In this document: one piece after another, positions 1 through 27,845 of the stretch
How positions within the stretch are numbered: position 1 is the first letter of the stretch
How the letters are laid out: each line of letters begins with the position of its first letter
Assembly (NCBI RefSeq): GCF_013036045.1
Contig: NZ_WTPX01000020.1
Location: forward strand, 1-48,883
Source: Alienimonas chondri
GTDB lineage: Bacteria; Planctomycetota; Planctomycetia; Planctomycetales; Planctomycetaceae
Length of the DNA stretch: 48,883 bases
Reading direction: 5' to 3'
Notes under the pieces: model-generated
What the model saw: the letters and a program-made list of their open reading frames with translations, nothing else
Told to the model about the DNA's origin: nothing
The model's database searches: none
Translations under genes and position numbers: made by a program

Positions 1-106
1 TGCCTAGAGTGGTCGTCAGACCTCCTCGCAGACCCCCGCCGCCCCCGGTCGTAACGGACCGGGGGCGGCGGGGGTCTGCGAGGAGGTCTGACGACCACTC
101 TAGGCA
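1..106. repeat. 106-base inverted repeat (50-bp perfect arms, 6-nt loop)
   Basis: Bases 1-50 are exactly complementary to bases 57-106, leaving only the loop GTAACG (51-56). The stem is very GC-rich towards the loop. It lies downstream of the minus-strand sulfatase, so in RNA it would be an enormous hairpin 3' of that gene, but any U-tract would lie beyond base 1 and cannot be seen. Perfect arms of this length are normally unstable in bacteria. The left end coincides with the first base of the window, so the arms could be longer, and a fold-back assembly artefact is possible. Confidence 0.9.
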
Positions 107-174
107 ATCGCGGTCGGCTTGTCCGGGGGAACCCTGATTCCGTCCAAGGGGAACGACTGCTGGTCACGTCGCGA

Positions 175-1878
175 TCAGCCGCCGGCCCGCTTCACGCCCC
201 CGTCTTTCTGGCGCTCGTAGCCCTGCCGGGTGGCGTACGGCGGGTTGTCGAAGGTGTCGCCTTCACCGGTCACCCGCGGGTCGCCGGTTTCTTCGAGGTG
301 CCGCATCAGCCGAGCGGACAGTCGCTCTTTCGCCTCCGCGTGCGCCGGGTCGTCGGCGAGGTTCGTCATCTGATGCGGGTCGGCCTTCACGTCGTAAAGC
401 TCTTCGCCGGGACGCTTGAGGAAGCCGAGGTCGAACGCCCGTTTCGTGACTTCGTCGTCGTCTCGGTGTTCGATCATCCAGCGCTTCGTCGGACTGGCGT
501 CGACGTCCGCGAAGGCGGCGCGGGTGTTGCCGCCGAGGGCGTTCGCGTTCGGCATCTCGCCCGGTTCGCCGTACCCGGGGGCGGTGCCCTGCGGCCAGCG
601 CTCCGGGTCGAAGTTGCGGATGTAGAGATAGTCGTCGGTGCGGATCGCCCGCTGGGGGTAGGGCAGATAGTCGGTGCGGGCCGCGGCGACGTGCCGTTCC
701 CGCCCGAAGTACGCGGCGTCCCGCTCCTCATCCACGCGACCGGCTTCGTCCGTAACGAGCACGGAGGCCAGGCTGCGGGCGGACATCCCGTCCGGCGGCT
801 CGACCCCGGCGATCTCCAAGAAGGTCGGGGCGAGGTCCGGCAGGATGACGAAGTCCGTGACGACGCGGCCGTTCCCGTCGGCGCCCGCGGAGACGCCCGG
901 CCCGGCGATGGCCAGCGGGACGGCGACGCCGAAGTCGTACAGGTTCGTTTTGCCTCGCGGAAAGCCGGGGGCGCCGTGGTCCCCGCTGACGGCGATGATC
1001 GTGCTGCTCAGTTCGCCGCGGTCGTCCAATTCCTGCAGCAGCACGCCGAGAGCGGCGTCGAAGGCCATCACCTCGCCGAGGTAATCCGCGAAGTCCTCCC
1101 GGATCTCCGGCACGTCCGGCAGGAAGGGCGGCAGCTTGCCTTTGAGGCTGTCCGGGTCGATGTCCCAGATTTTCTTGCCGCTGCCCTGAACCCAGGTGCG
1201 GTGCACGTTGGTCGGTCCGAACCAGTAATGCCAGGGCTTGCCGGACTCGTCGGCGTCCTTCAGGAACATGGTGAAGTTGTCACGGACTTCCTTGAGGAGC
1301 TTGCCGCCGGCGTCGGCGGGATCGTCCGCCTTGGAGACGACGCGGGAGAACCCGTTGAACTTCCCGCCGGCCTTTTCGTAGCCGGTGCGTTTCCCGCCGA
1401 AGGGGGCGTCGTTGGGCGTGCCGGGACTCCACACTTTGTACGTCTGACCGAGGTGATAGCCGTCCGCCTCAAGGGCTTCGGGGTAACTCGTGATCGAGCC
1501 GTCCCAGATCGCTCCGTTCAGAATCGCGCCCATCCCGGTCGTGTAGAACGGCCGGCCGGTCAGCAGGGAGCTGCGGCACGGCGTGCAACTGGGGGCGTTG
1601 ACGTAGGCGTGCGTGAACAGCACGCCGGCCTTCGCGATGCGATCGAAGTTCGGCGTTTCAAACCCCGCGGCCTTGCACAGATCGTTGCGGGCGTCGCCGT
1701 CGAGGGCGGCATAGGCGCTGGCGTACCGGCCCCAGTCGTCCGCGAAGGCGAACAGGATGTTGGGCCGCTCCGCGGACTCAGCGGCGGTCGTTGCAGCGGC
1801 GACTTTCTCGGCCCCGTCCGGCTGTGCAAACAGCGAACCGGGGGCGAGCAGCAGAACAGCGAAGGCGACGGTACGCAC
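175..1878 (-). CDS. Secreted sulfatase (sulfamidase-like, formylglycine type)
   Basis: A 567-residue exported sulfatase of the alkaline phosphatase-like fold, predicted to hydrolyse sulfate esters or N-sulfates of polysaccharides outside the cytoplasm. A signal peptide covers about residues 1-18. The metal-binding Asp pair is in FADDWG (about 47-48). The formylglycine signature C-T-P-C-R is at 98-102, fitting C-x-P-x-R, and a further metal site is in SGDHG. The start is GTG with a GGAG-type ribosome site about 9 bases upstream. The C-terminal third (PTKRW, ELYDV, GDPRVTG) matches the sulfatase at 29942, so the two are the same subfamily. The substrate cannot be told. It faces away from the neighbouring genes and appears monocistronic. 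Confidence 0.93.
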
Positions 1879-1934
1879 GGCGAATCTCTCCGGGGACGAG
1901 GCGATCTGATTGTGCTGCCCCGCCCGCGACGCCG

Positions 1935-2279
1935 CTACCGAGCGTCGTTCAGGTCACTCCGCCGCCGCTTGTTTCCCCGCCGTCGGTCTTCCGCGAGCAG
2001 TGCTTGATATGCCGCCCGACGTTCTGCCTCCGTACGATCCGGGTCGAGGTGCGGGGGCGGGGGCAGGACCCACGCCGGTCGCGGGCGTCGCTTCAAAGTT
2101 GGGTGAGGACGGCCGGACTCCGGCGGGCTGGGGAGCCGCTGCGAGAGTTCCGGACGGAGTCGCCGAAACAACTCCATCAGCCGAGCCGTTGACCGAATCG
2201 GGTCCGCCACTGGCGGAAGTGCGGTCGCCTCGGCGTCGGAGCGAGGGCGCCGTAGCGGCTGGGAAGGGCGTTCGGTCAT
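1935..2279 (-). CDS. 114-residue Pro/Arg-rich protein coupled to a nucleotidyltransferase
   Basis: A small basic protein of unknown function. Its ATG overlaps the TGA of the upstream nucleotidyltransferase (ATGA), which strongly suggests translational coupling and is the main reason to call it a gene. The sequence is rich in Arg and Pro (for example [21 protein letters not shown]), with a possible helical segment around 85-105 ([17 protein letters not shown]). No enzyme motif, signal peptide or membrane segment is visible. Other frames across this GC-rich stretch are also open, so coding status is not certain. It could be a partner or regulator of the nucleotidyltransferase; that is inference only. 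Confidence 0.5.
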
Positions 2280-2803
2280 GCATCCGTCCCGTCGCGTGAC
2301 GAGGATGAATAAGGCTCCGCGTCCGCCGTCGCTTCCAGCGCGGCGATGTCGGCGAGATCCTGAGGCCGACCGGCCGCTCGCTTCATGGCGATCAGGTCGT
2401 CGCGGGCGATCAGGCGGACGACGCCCGCTTCCTCCTGCCGTCGCCCGGCGTTCGAGACGATGGCCCGGTAGTCGTCGGAGTCTCTGAACATGAGATCAAT
2501 GATGAGATAATCACGCCCCAACGTTTTCATGAACCGGCGGAGCGTCACGCCGCTTTGCGAGAACGTCCAGGGCTGGGCGCTCTCGAAGTATCCGACGGAC
2601 TCGATCACTTCGGCGGCGGCCTCGACGGATTCCGGCAAGGTCAGCAAGTCGATGTCTTCGGTCGCCCGGGGTCGGGCCAGCAACGACACCGCCAGTCCGC
2701 CGACGACGCAGTAAGGTACGCTCGCCGCCTCCAGCGCGTGAACGACCGCGAAGAACTCGTTGTAGATGTCGAGGGGAGGGGAATCTCCGTTCGGTAATGT
2801 CAC
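2276..2803 (-). CDS. Small nucleotidyltransferase (pol-beta/AbiEii-like fold)
   Basis: A 175-residue protein with the minimal nucleotidyltransferase core: VVGGLAVS (G35, G36, S40), then the catalytic DID (D50, D52) and a third acidic position in LIIDLMF (D103). Families with this pattern transfer NMPs to protein, RNA or small-molecule targets and include the toxins of several toxin-antitoxin systems. The open frame continues far upstream, but that part is antisense to the lutA-like gene. The GTG at 2803, preceded by CGGAG, is the sensible start. It is divergent from the lut operon and overlaps the next gene by four bases. The C-terminus (LIARDDLIAMKRAAGRPQDLADI) is typical of the AbiEii/DUF6036-like branch. 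The target is unknown. Confidence 0.85.
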   Translation of the reverse strand: MTLPNGDSPPLDIYNEFFAVVHALEAASVPYCVVGGLAVSLLARPRATEDIDLLTLPESVEAAAEVIESVGYFESAQPWTFSQSGVTLRRFMKTLGRDYLIIDLMFRDSDDYRAIVSNAGRRQEEAGVVRLIARDDLIAMKRAAGRPQDLADIAALEATADAEPYSSSSRDGTDA

Positions 2804-2965
2804 GGGGAATGCTCCGGGAGGGGGCCGGCACGGATCAGTCGACGGCCAGCCTATCTTGACCGCGGGAAGCCGCGTCGACTCGGCGGACTGCAACTGCGGG
2901 GCGGCGATCGTATGATCTCGAGTCGATCCGAGTATCCTTCCTTCCTCTTGCGAGACCGGCCCCCC

Positions 2966-3727
2966 GTGCGCGTCGGCCTGTTCATTCCCTGCTATGTCGA
3001 TCAATTCTACCCCCGCGTGGGCGCCGCGGCGGTGCGCGTGCTGCGGCGCTTCGGCGGGCCGGACCTGACCTTGGAGTACCCTGAGGGTCAGGTCTGCTGC
3101 GGTCAGCCGATGGCCAACGCCGGTCTGCCCCACGAATCGAAACCGCTCGCGGAGACCAATCTGCGAACCTTCGCGGAGTTCGACGCCGTGGTCTGTCCCA
3201 GCGGCTCGTGCACCTCGATGGTGCGGAATCACTACGGGCCGTTCCTCGAAGGTCAGCCCGGGTTCGAGGAACTCAAGGCGAAGACGTATGAGTTCTGCGA
3301 GTTCCTCACGGACGTGCTGAAGGTCGGCAGCCCGAGCGGCCGGTTTCCCCACAAAGTCGGCCTGCACCCCGGCTGTCACGGTTTGCGGGAACTGCGGCTG
3401 GGCAGCGGCAGCGAACGAAACGTCGAACCCTTCGACAAGGTGAAGTCCCTGCTGACTGGATTGGAGGGCCTCACGTTCAGCGAACCGGCTCGCCCCGACG
3501 AGTGCTGCGGGTTCGGCGGCACCTTCGCGGTCAACGAAGAGGCGGTCAGCGTGATGATGGGGCAGGACAAGATCGCCGACCACAAACAGGCCGGCACGGA
3601 AGCGCTGGTCAGCCCGGACATGAGTTGCCTGATGCACCTGGAGGGGGTCCTCCGCCGCGGCGGCGACAAACAGACCCGCGTGCTGCACGTCGCCGAAGTG
3701 CTGGAGGAAGCGACGCGGGAGACGTGA
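2966..3727 (+). CDS. lutA: L-lactate oxidation Fe-S protein LutA-like (CCG domains)
   Basis: The Fe-S/CCG-domain subunit of the LutABC lactate dehydrogenase system, which oxidises L-lactate to pyruvate at the membrane. Two cysteine-rich CCG modules are visible: IPCYVD followed by VCCGQPM, and HPGCHG followed by ECCGFGGTFAVNE. The preferred start is GTG at 2966, giving MRVGLFIPCYVD, which matches the usual family start and gives 253 residues. An in-frame ATG at 2912 would add 18 residues. It is first in an operon with lutB (58-base gap) and lutC. The divergent region 2804-2965 should hold the promoter; no clear regulator site was seen. Confidence 0.92.
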   Translation: MRVGLFIPCYVDQFYPRVGAAAVRVLRRFGGPDLTLEYPEGQVCCGQPMANAGLPHESKPLAETNLRTFAEFDAVVCPSGSCTSMVRNHYGPFLEGQPGFEELKAKTYEFCEFLTDVLKVGSPSGRFPHKVGLHPGCHGLRELRLGSGSERNVEPFDKVKSLLTGLEGLTFSEPARPDECCGFGGTFAVNEEAVSVMMGQDKIADHKQAGTEALVSPDMSCLMHLEGVLRRGGDKQTRVLHVAEVLEEATRET

Positions 3728-3785
3728 CGATCTCCTGTTTCGCACGGTTCTAGAGTTCACTGATTCGCCTTCGCCGCCCGCCCTG

Positions 3786-5249
3786 ATGAAAACCGCCGAG
3801 CACCCCGATCGCGCCCGCGCCTTCGTCGCCGACGACGCCCGCGCCCACTGGCACGACGAATCCCTGTGGTTCGTCCGCACCAAGCGCGACAAACAGGCGC
3901 ACTCCGTCCCCGAGTGGGAACGCCTGCGGGAGCTGGGTAGTCAGATCAAACGGCACGCGATCTCCCGCTGGCCGGACTATCTGGAGGAGTTCGAGAAGAA
4001 CGCGACCGCTCTCGGGGCGAAGGTCCATTGGGCCGCGAATGCGGAGGAGCACAACCGCATCGTCCTCGGCATTCTTCAGGAGGCCGGCGTCGAAAAGGTG
4101 ACGAAATCGAAATCGATGCTGACGGAGGAGGTGCACCTCAACCCGCATCTGATTCGGAACGGCATCGAAGTCACCGATACCGACCTCGGCGAGCGAATCG
4201 TCCAGCTGCGGGAGGAAACGCCCAGTCACATCGTGCTGCCGGCGATTCACCTGAAGCGGGAAGACGTCTCGGAGACGTTCAATCAACACCTCGGCACCGA
4301 GGCCGGCAACGCCGATCCGGCGTACCTCACGGAAGCCGCCCGCCAGCACCTGCGGGAAAAATTTTTAGGGGCCGAGGCGAGCATCACCGGGGTGAACTTT
4401 CTCGTCGCGGAGACCGGCGGCTTCGTCGTCTGCACGAACGAGGGCAACGCGGACCTCGGCACGAGCCTGCCCCGCTTGCACATCGCCTGCACGGGAATCG
4501 AGAAGCTGGTCCCCCGGGCGGCGGATCTCGCGGTGTATCTGCGTCTGCTGGGACGCAGCGCCACCGGTCAACCGATTACCACCTATACGAGTCACTTTCA
4601 CGGCCCGCGGCCGGGCGGGGAACTGCATATCGTGCTGGTCGACAACGGCCGCAGCGATCTCGCGGACGACCCGCAGTTCCGGGACATTCTCAACTGCATC
4701 CGCTGCGGGGCGTGTATTAATACGTGTCCCGTCTACCGGCGCAGCGGCGGGCACAGTTACGCCGCCACCGTGCCCGGCCCGGTCGGCAGCGTGTTGAACC
4801 CGTTGCACGCCCTGACCCCGATGATCGCGGGAGAGGACGCCCGCGAGGGCGAACGCGGCGACGCCCACGGCTCGCTGCCCTTCGCGTGCAGCCTGTGCGG
4901 CAGCTGCACGGACGTCTGCCCGGTCAAGATTCCGTTGCACCATCAACTGCTGGCGTTGCGGAAGACGGTCGGCGACCGCGGATTGCTGCCGTGGGGAAAA
5001 CGAATTCAGATGAAGGCCGCCAGCACGCTGCTCAATTCGCCCAAGCTGTTCGGCGCCGTGGGCAAAATCGCCCGCAAAGCTCTCCCCGTGCTGCCGAAGA
5101 TGGCGGTTTATAATCGCCTCAACGCTTGGGGCAACGGCCGCGATCTTCCCCCGGCGCCGCCCAAAAGCTTTAAGCAGATGTGGCGTGACGAATTGAAGGC
5201 GGAATCGGCGCAGCCTTCGTCAAACGGGGCGGGCGACGCTCCACGCTGA
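3786..5249 (+). CDS. lutB: L-lactate oxidation ferredoxin-like subunit LutB
   Basis: A 487-residue LutB-type protein: an N-terminal LUD/DUF162 domain (about 60-290) followed by two 4Fe-4S ferredoxin motifs. The first cluster site is C304, C307, C310, C314 (CIRCGACINTCPVY); the second is C368, C371, C374, C378 (CSLCGSCTDVCPVK). It carries electrons from lactate oxidation towards the respiratory chain. The C-terminal tail beyond 400 is helical and ends in PPKSFKQMWR, as in other LutB proteins. Length and domain order are normal. It sits between lutA and lutC on the same strand, so co-transcription is expected. Confidence 0.95.
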   Translation: MKTAEHPDRARAFVADDARAHWHDESLWFVRTKRDKQAHSVPEWERLRELGSQIKRHAISRWPDYLEEFEKNATALGAKVHWAANAEEHNRIVLGILQEAGVEKVTKSKSMLTEEVHLNPHLIRNGIEVTDTDLGERIVQLREETPSHIVLPAIHLKREDVSETFNQHLGTEAGNADPAYLTEAARQHLREKFLGAEASITGVNFLVAETGGFVVCTNEGNADLGTSLPRLHIACTGIEKLVPRAADLAVYLRLLGRSATGQPITTYTSHFHGPRPGGELHIVLVDNGRSDLADDPQFRDILNCIRCGACINTCPVYRRSGGHSYAATVPGPVGSVLNPLHALTPMIAGEDAREGERGDAHGSLPFACSLCGSCTDVCPVKIPLHHQLLALRKTVGDRGLLPWGKRIQMKAASTLLNSPKLFGAVGKIARKALPVLPKMAVYNRLNAWGNGRDLPPAPPKSFKQMWRDELKAESAQPSSNGAGDAPR

Positions 5250-5301
5250 CGGCGCTTCGCGGGCCCGTCGCTTCGTTTTCCTCGCAAACGTTTTACGCTC
5301 C

Positions 5302-5955
5302 ATGAACTCCCCCGCCGCTGAGCCGTCCGTGTCCGCCACGCGAACCGCCCTCTTTAAAAAGCTCCGCGGGCGACTGCTCGAAGCGGTCGAACTGCCGGAC
5401 CTCAACGCCGAGCAATGGATTCGCTATGACGACCCGCTGGCCCAGTTCGAAGAGGTTTTGGGGGCCGTCGGCGGAACGCCGGTGCGGGTCGCGGATCTCG
5501 CCGCGGCGAATGCTCATCTGAAGCAGTTGCCGGTGTGGGCCGAGGCAAAGCAAACCGTGTCGCTGGTCGACGGCTTGGGCGAGACGACCGAGGGGCTGAG
5601 CGCCGTGCCGGACGTCCACGAACTGGCCGGCGTGGACGTGGCGGTGTTTGACGGGCTGTTCGGCGTCGCGGAGAACGGGGCGGTCTGGCTCGACTTCTCC
5701 CACTCCGATCACCGCGGCCTGTGCGTGATCGCCCAGCATCTCGTGCTGGCCGTTCCGGCAAGCGAGATCGAGCATACGATGCACGAAGCCTACGCCCGCC
5801 TCGCGGACGCCGACGGTTCTCATCGCCAGAAGTTCGGTCGCGGCGGCTTCGGAATGTTCGTCTCCGGTCCCAGTAAAACGGCGGATATCGAACAGTCCCT
5901 CGTGATCGGCGCTCACGGAGCTCGGTCGCTGACCTGCTACCTGTTGGACGGGTGA
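5302..5955 (+). CDS. lutC: Lactate utilisation protein LutC (LUD domain)
   Basis: A 217-residue LUD (DUF162) domain protein, the third component of the LutABC system. The family hallmarks are the central GLFGVAENGAVWLDFS, the segment CVIAQHLVLAVPASEI, and the C-terminal SGPSKTADIEQSLVIGAHGARS. It lacks the ferredoxin domain of LutB, as expected. The ATG at 5302 lies 52 bases after lutB. The adjacent potassium channel is convergent. No lactate permease or LldR/LutR-type regulator lies next to the operon in this window. Confidence 0.93.
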   Translation: MNSPAAEPSVSATRTALFKKLRGRLLEAVELPDLNAEQWIRYDDPLAQFEEVLGAVGGTPVRVADLAAANAHLKQLPVWAEAKQTVSLVDGLGETTEGLSAVPDVHELAGVDVAVFDGLFGVAENGAVWLDFSHSDHRGLCVIAQHLVLAVPASEIEHTMHEAYARLADADGSHRQKFGRGGFGMFVSGPSKTADIEQSLVIGAHGARSLTCYLLDG

Positions 5956-10676: not shown

Positions 10677-10771
10677 GTAGGGTCCGCTGTGCGGACCGTG
10701 TGCGCCGGCCTGTATGGCCGGCTTCGCCCCAACCCGACATCAACATCGACGGTCCACATAGCGGACCCTAC
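10677..10771. repeat. REP/MITE-like palindromic element upstream of galT-like gene
   Basis: Imperfect inverted repeat: the arm at 10677-10697 begins GTAGGGTCCGCTGTG, and its partner at 10751-10771 matches in 19 of 21 positions when reverse-complemented. An inner hairpin GCCGGCC/GGCCGGC lies at 10704-10710 and 10716-10722. It starts two bases after the GH57 stop and ends seven bases before the next ATG, filling almost the whole gap. The layout resembles dispersed non-autonomous palindromes; copy number cannot be judged from this window. Confidence 0.75.
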
Positions 10772-27351: not shown

Positions 27352-27360
27352 ACGTCCCGG

Positions 27361-27482
27361 AGCCCCGACCGTCAGGGAGCGGGCCGCTCGTCCGCGACCG
27401 ACGACTTCTTCGCCGTGCCGTTTGATGTTGGGGCGTCAGCGGTCGAACCTGAGAGAGCGGCCCCTCCCTGACGGTCGGGGCT
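27361..27482. repeat. 122-base palindromic REP-like element
   Basis: The left arm 27361-27389 (starting AGCCCCGACCGTCAGGGAG) is matched by its reverse complement at 27455-27482: the outer 19 and inner 9 bases pair perfectly with one bulged C at 27380. A 65-base loop lies between the arms. The element begins just after the DUF4261-like stop and covers the last third of the convergent DUF6915-like gene, whose stop codon lies in the left arm. No transposase is nearby, so it is presumably mobilised in trans or relic. Confidence 0.85.
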
Positions 27483-27845
27483 CGGAACGGCGCCGTTCGT
27501 CACTGCCCGCGACGACGGGCGAAAGGGCGTTCGCAACATCCACGGCTGCATTTGCAGGTTCGTCAGCCAGTCGGCGACGGTGGGGATGCGGCCGAGGTCG
27601 TCTTTGACGTGCTGTTCGCCGATTAATCGCGTCGGCACCCGCTTGCCGTCGCTGTTGGTGAGGGTCACACCGAAGAGTTTTTCCGCGAGGAAAATCCCTT
27701 CGGAGTGATGCCGCAGCGCCCGATGCCGCAGGTCAGGCAGGTGGGCCTTCGACTCGTCGAACCAGCTATGCAGTTCGAGGTAGTCGTCGGCGACGCCCCC
27801 GAACAACCGGGCGCTGCGTTCGGCGTGGTGGAAGGGGTGGGCCAT
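27372..27845 (-). CDS. DUF6915-like protein with repeat-derived C-terminus
   Basis: A 157-residue protein. The first 105 residues match the DUF6915 pattern: MAHPFHHAERSARLFGGVADDY, WFDESKAHLPDLRHRALRHHSEGIFLAE, NSDGKRVPTRLIGEQHVKDDLG and ADWL. It may bind metal through its many histidines; the function is unknown. From about residue 120 the frame runs through a palindromic element, so the tail (PSPDRQGGAAL... DERPAP) is encoded by repeat DNA. ATG 27845 is the natural start; it lies eight bases after the upstream paralogue gene. Third gene of a minus-strand operon. Confidence 0.8.
   Translation of the reverse strand: MAHPFHHAERSARLFGGVADDYLELHSWFDESKAHLPDLRHRALRHHSEGIFLAEKLFGVTLTNSDGKRVPTRLIGEQHVKDDLGRIPTVADWLTNLQMQPWMLRTPFRPSSRAVTNGAVPSPDRQGGAALSGSTADAPTSNGTAKKSSVADERPAP

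Follow-up and report, generated by a model that had tools for sequence, protein, structure and literature searches.

A perfect 106-base hairpin at the end of an Alienimonas chondri contig is very probably a sequencing or assembly fold-back

The contig end and its features

The window, that is the whole stretch of DNA analysed here, is the entire contig C113 (48,883 bp) of Alienimonas chondri, taken from a draft assembly (G000) of 355 contigs and 5,295,625 bases. It opens with a perfect hairpin spanning 106 bases and, since the window is the complete contig, this palindrome abuts a raw contig end. The initial annotation, made from the sequence alone, had described perfect 50-bp arms around a six-base loop, with the outer end lying exactly at the window boundary. 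Both points hold, as a check of the window sequence finds the two arms to be 100% complementary around a 6-nt loop and C113 physically ends at base 1. The features at this end are as follows:

1–50, no strand assigned: outer arm, most likely made artificially by reverse-complement copying of 57–106, being its perfect complement and flush with the contig end
51–56, no strand assigned: loop, the turning point of the fold-back, as read from the sequence
57–106, minus strand: inner arm, native, the leader of a missing RseP-like gene, running collinearly into the alignment with a sister genome
175–1878, minus strand: sulfatase-like gene adjoining the contig end, given for context from its open reading frame and translation

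We take the frame at 175–1878 to be sulfatase-like from its sequence. When bases 1–160 are folded as single-stranded RNA the structure reaches −145 kcal/mol with a z-score of −16.6, which places the hairpin far beyond chance, and the palindrome is the longest perfect inverted repeat in the 828 kb of the genome surveyed. The genome search for further copies of the arm that had been proposed at the outset was run over the whole genome and found none outside the palindrome. Similarly, 16-mers of bases 1–56 gave 0 matches in the other 85 contigs of the draft that were searched, and a reading of the arm as a member of a repeat family was therefore dropped.

Inverted repeats of other kinds do occur in this DNA. 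The window contains two internal imperfect examples with 23-nt arms, one at 10677–10771 (91% identity, 49-nt spacer) and one at 27360–27483 (96%, 78-nt spacer). In addition, short hairpin-like repeats between genes form three families, represented by L073:1224–1299, L013:17359–17512 and L024:8128–8185, which occur in this genus in many copies and on either strand; among the matches listed in the sister genome for the L013 query there are 65, nearly all to one stretch. These families look to us like real REP-type repeats, and they differ from the palindromes at contig ends, which are unique.

The sister genome and the gap at base 1

Relatives were sought among 40 genomes, including that of the window itself, and the only other genome of the genus was the sister G001, a single contig of 5,475,215 bp. 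A collinear match is shown for this sister only, the other genomes searched having given weaker matches. Window positions 62–5948 align collinearly with positions 5873–8 of the sister segment L024 at 78% identity, and the homologous site lies in the interior of the 5.48-Mb contig, near 135.9 kb. Only the inner arm is present at the collinear sister locus. Its alignment to the sister scores 44, above all of 500 shuffles (maximum 40), and the outer arm has no significant match to the sister sequence beyond the loop, with a score of 26 (shuffles: mean 20.3, maximum 36). Beyond the native arm the sister carries no palindrome; perfect inverted repeats in L024 5800–6000 have arms of at most 6 bp when loops of up to 40 are allowed. 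Instead, its sequence runs on into a 720-amino acid frame that starts at L024 5923 and that is, judging from its sequence, presumably an RseP-like protease.

A search with the RseP-like protein gave no match in the genome of the window, and the same search finds it in the sister. Since this gene is missing from the assembly, base 1 of C113 marks an assembly gap, and another contig of the draft, C70, picks up the gene order again just beyond the RseP-like gene. With the sister as a guide, the gap between C113 and C70 would be roughly 2.2 kb. The draft is 97% complete and yet lacks this site-2 protease gene, while the neighbours on both sides are present; the absence is most likely an assembly gap, lying between base 1 of C113 and base 1 of C70. 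The contigs are numbered by descending length in text order, and their lengths suggest that the numbering reflects length-ranked names from a short-read assembler.

Flush palindromes at other contig ends

A survey was made of 86 of the 355 contigs (827,800 bases, 165 ends), which were taken in number blocks together with C70 as the neighbour and C113 as the finding itself, with 7 long contigs represented by their left end only. A flush repeat was defined as a perfect inverted repeat with arms of at least 12 nt and a loop of up to 80, whose outer edge lies exactly at the contig end. Such repeats stand at 13 of the 165 ends (approximately 8%), against 0.12 expected from random cuts (Poisson tail about 1e-22), a null that ignores contigs breaking preferentially at real hairpins, so that more weight falls on the split in arm length and on the comparison of other ends with the sister. 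Setting C113 aside leaves 12 of 163 ends, and the twelve other flush repeats are of unrelated sequence. All four of the repeats with arms of at least 40 nt (50, 47, 43 and 42) are flush with contig ends; internal perfect repeats with arms of up to 33 nt exist in the genome, and none with arms of at least 35 nt was found internally in 828 kb of it or in 340 kb of the sister. The whole flush palindromes measure 41–153 bases, which is of the order of a short-read length. Two other drafts from the family had no flush palindromes at 27 ends (20 contigs), which would be consistent with the artefact belonging to this data set and not to drafts in general, a weak control given that about two flush ends would be expected there at a rate of 8%. 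Real repeats truncated where the contig stops may account for some of the 13, such as those at L013 and L136.

The sister comparison covered seven of these 13 ends and left out L148, L136, L143, L062, L064 and L142. Four of the seven (C113, L071, L138 and L073) are informative and support a fold-back. In L071, both arms at the right end align to one and the same set of sister bases, the outer one in reverse, and the encoded protein switches from a normal match to the antisense of itself. L138 ends inside a membrane-protein gene, and its outer arm reads as antisense to the coding DNA of that same gene. In both cases the sister gene is continuous where the outer arm is a reverse complement of coding DNA, and at two of the compared ends the outer copies corrupt gene starts. 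For L073 the sister has one arm only, and perfect inverted repeats near the site reach 8 nt at most. The L073 palindrome itself has an imperfect inner stem and perfect outer arms, as expected from these sequences if a natural imperfect stem had primed a copy. The comparison for L055 is supportive, but lies in low-complexity sequence, L061 has no syntenic hit in the sister, and at L013 the sister alignment ends short of the palindrome.

A fold-back and its alternatives

We propose, with a probability of about 95%, that the 106-base hairpin is a technical fold-back of sequencing or assembly and not a feature of the genome. During library preparation the end of a strand would pair with itself at a short, naturally occurring inverted repeat within the GC-rich leader DNA, and filling in of the folded-back end would give chimeric fragments that run from real sequence into its reverse complement. 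If ordinary read coverage failed at the site, where the RseP-like gene is missing, fold-back reads would be the only ones to extend the contig in this GC-rich stretch and the assembler would carry them to the end of C113, leaving position 57 onward as real sequence and 1–50 as the copy. We infer from the contig ends the fold-back and fill-in step, the drop in coverage and the extension by chimeric reads alone; the copy may have been made in the library or in an amplification step. The proposal brings together a raw contig end with a missing neighbour gene, a turning point at the end of the sequence with an outer arm that is an exact copy, a single arm in an independent relative that lacks the palindrome, the reappearance of the signature at unrelated sequences of this data set (13 of 165 ends), and reverse-complement outer arms inside coding genes.

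The initial annotation had left three readings side by side, namely a recent palindrome, a selected one (a giant terminator, or a recombination or replication site) and an artefact of fold-back reads. It is the last that gains, from the raw contig end, the recurrence at other ends and the sister without a palindrome, and nothing in the evidence favours the selected reading. That the leader of the RseP-like gene holds a genuine long palindrome, confined to this species and causing the assembly graph to branch at its outer edge, is very unlikely. A real inverted repeat would likewise stop a contig exactly at its outer edge, and internal perfect repeats with arms of up to 33 nt do occur in the genome; however, the sister lacks the palindrome, 828 kb contain no internal repeat of at least 35 nt, the same flush signature is found inside coding genes at other ends, and the outer arm would fall where, some 40 bases beyond the centre, the sister's gene begins. 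Were the palindrome genuine, its position downstream of the sulfatase-like gene might make it a giant terminator; the minus-strand bases after the hairpin, where the T run of a terminator would stand, lie beyond the contig end. A real 106-bp perfect palindrome that formed recently in this leader, is tolerated in vivo and halted the assembly is likewise very unlikely.

The position of the palindrome, at the extreme end of the sequence, also recalls the covalently closed hairpin end, or telomere, of a linear replicon. This has almost no chance of being correct, because the sister's single contig has the corresponding site in its interior, the same gene order continues on C70 beyond the gap, and flush repeats of unrelated sequence stand at twelve other contig ends; by synteny with the sister and C70 the site is not the end of a replicon.

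With the fold-back as our preferred explanation, the palindrome is true of the deposited sequence but very probably not of the genome, and there is no biological function to explain. Its sole import is a warning that perfect palindromes flush with contig ends in drafts should be compared with a relative, or with the reads, before anyone interprets them as terminators, telomeres or recombination sites. Interpretation should exclude bases 1–50 and perhaps some of the loop.

A narrow literature search found no account of flush palindromes at contig ends, and related artefacts have been described at the level of reads. In what it reports on sonicated libraries, one study found most artefacts to be chimeric reads containing inverted repeats, in which a part from the aligned strand is joined to one from the opposite strand, and proposed that they originate from strand pairing and end repair (PMC10908179). 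The chimeric reads of its PDSM model are alike in that a strand switches to its own reverse complement at a short inverted repeat of natural origin, and the pairing of single-stranded ends with end repair invoked there fits the present case (PMC10908179). They differ in being soft-clipped reads from human tumour DNA (PMC10908179), whereas here the chimeras are deduced from bacterial contig ends alone. The palindromic chimeras described for whole-genome amplification are likewise artificial palindromes arising from DNA preparation, although they were seen in long reads after amplification (PMC6218980), and there is no sign that the present sample was amplified.
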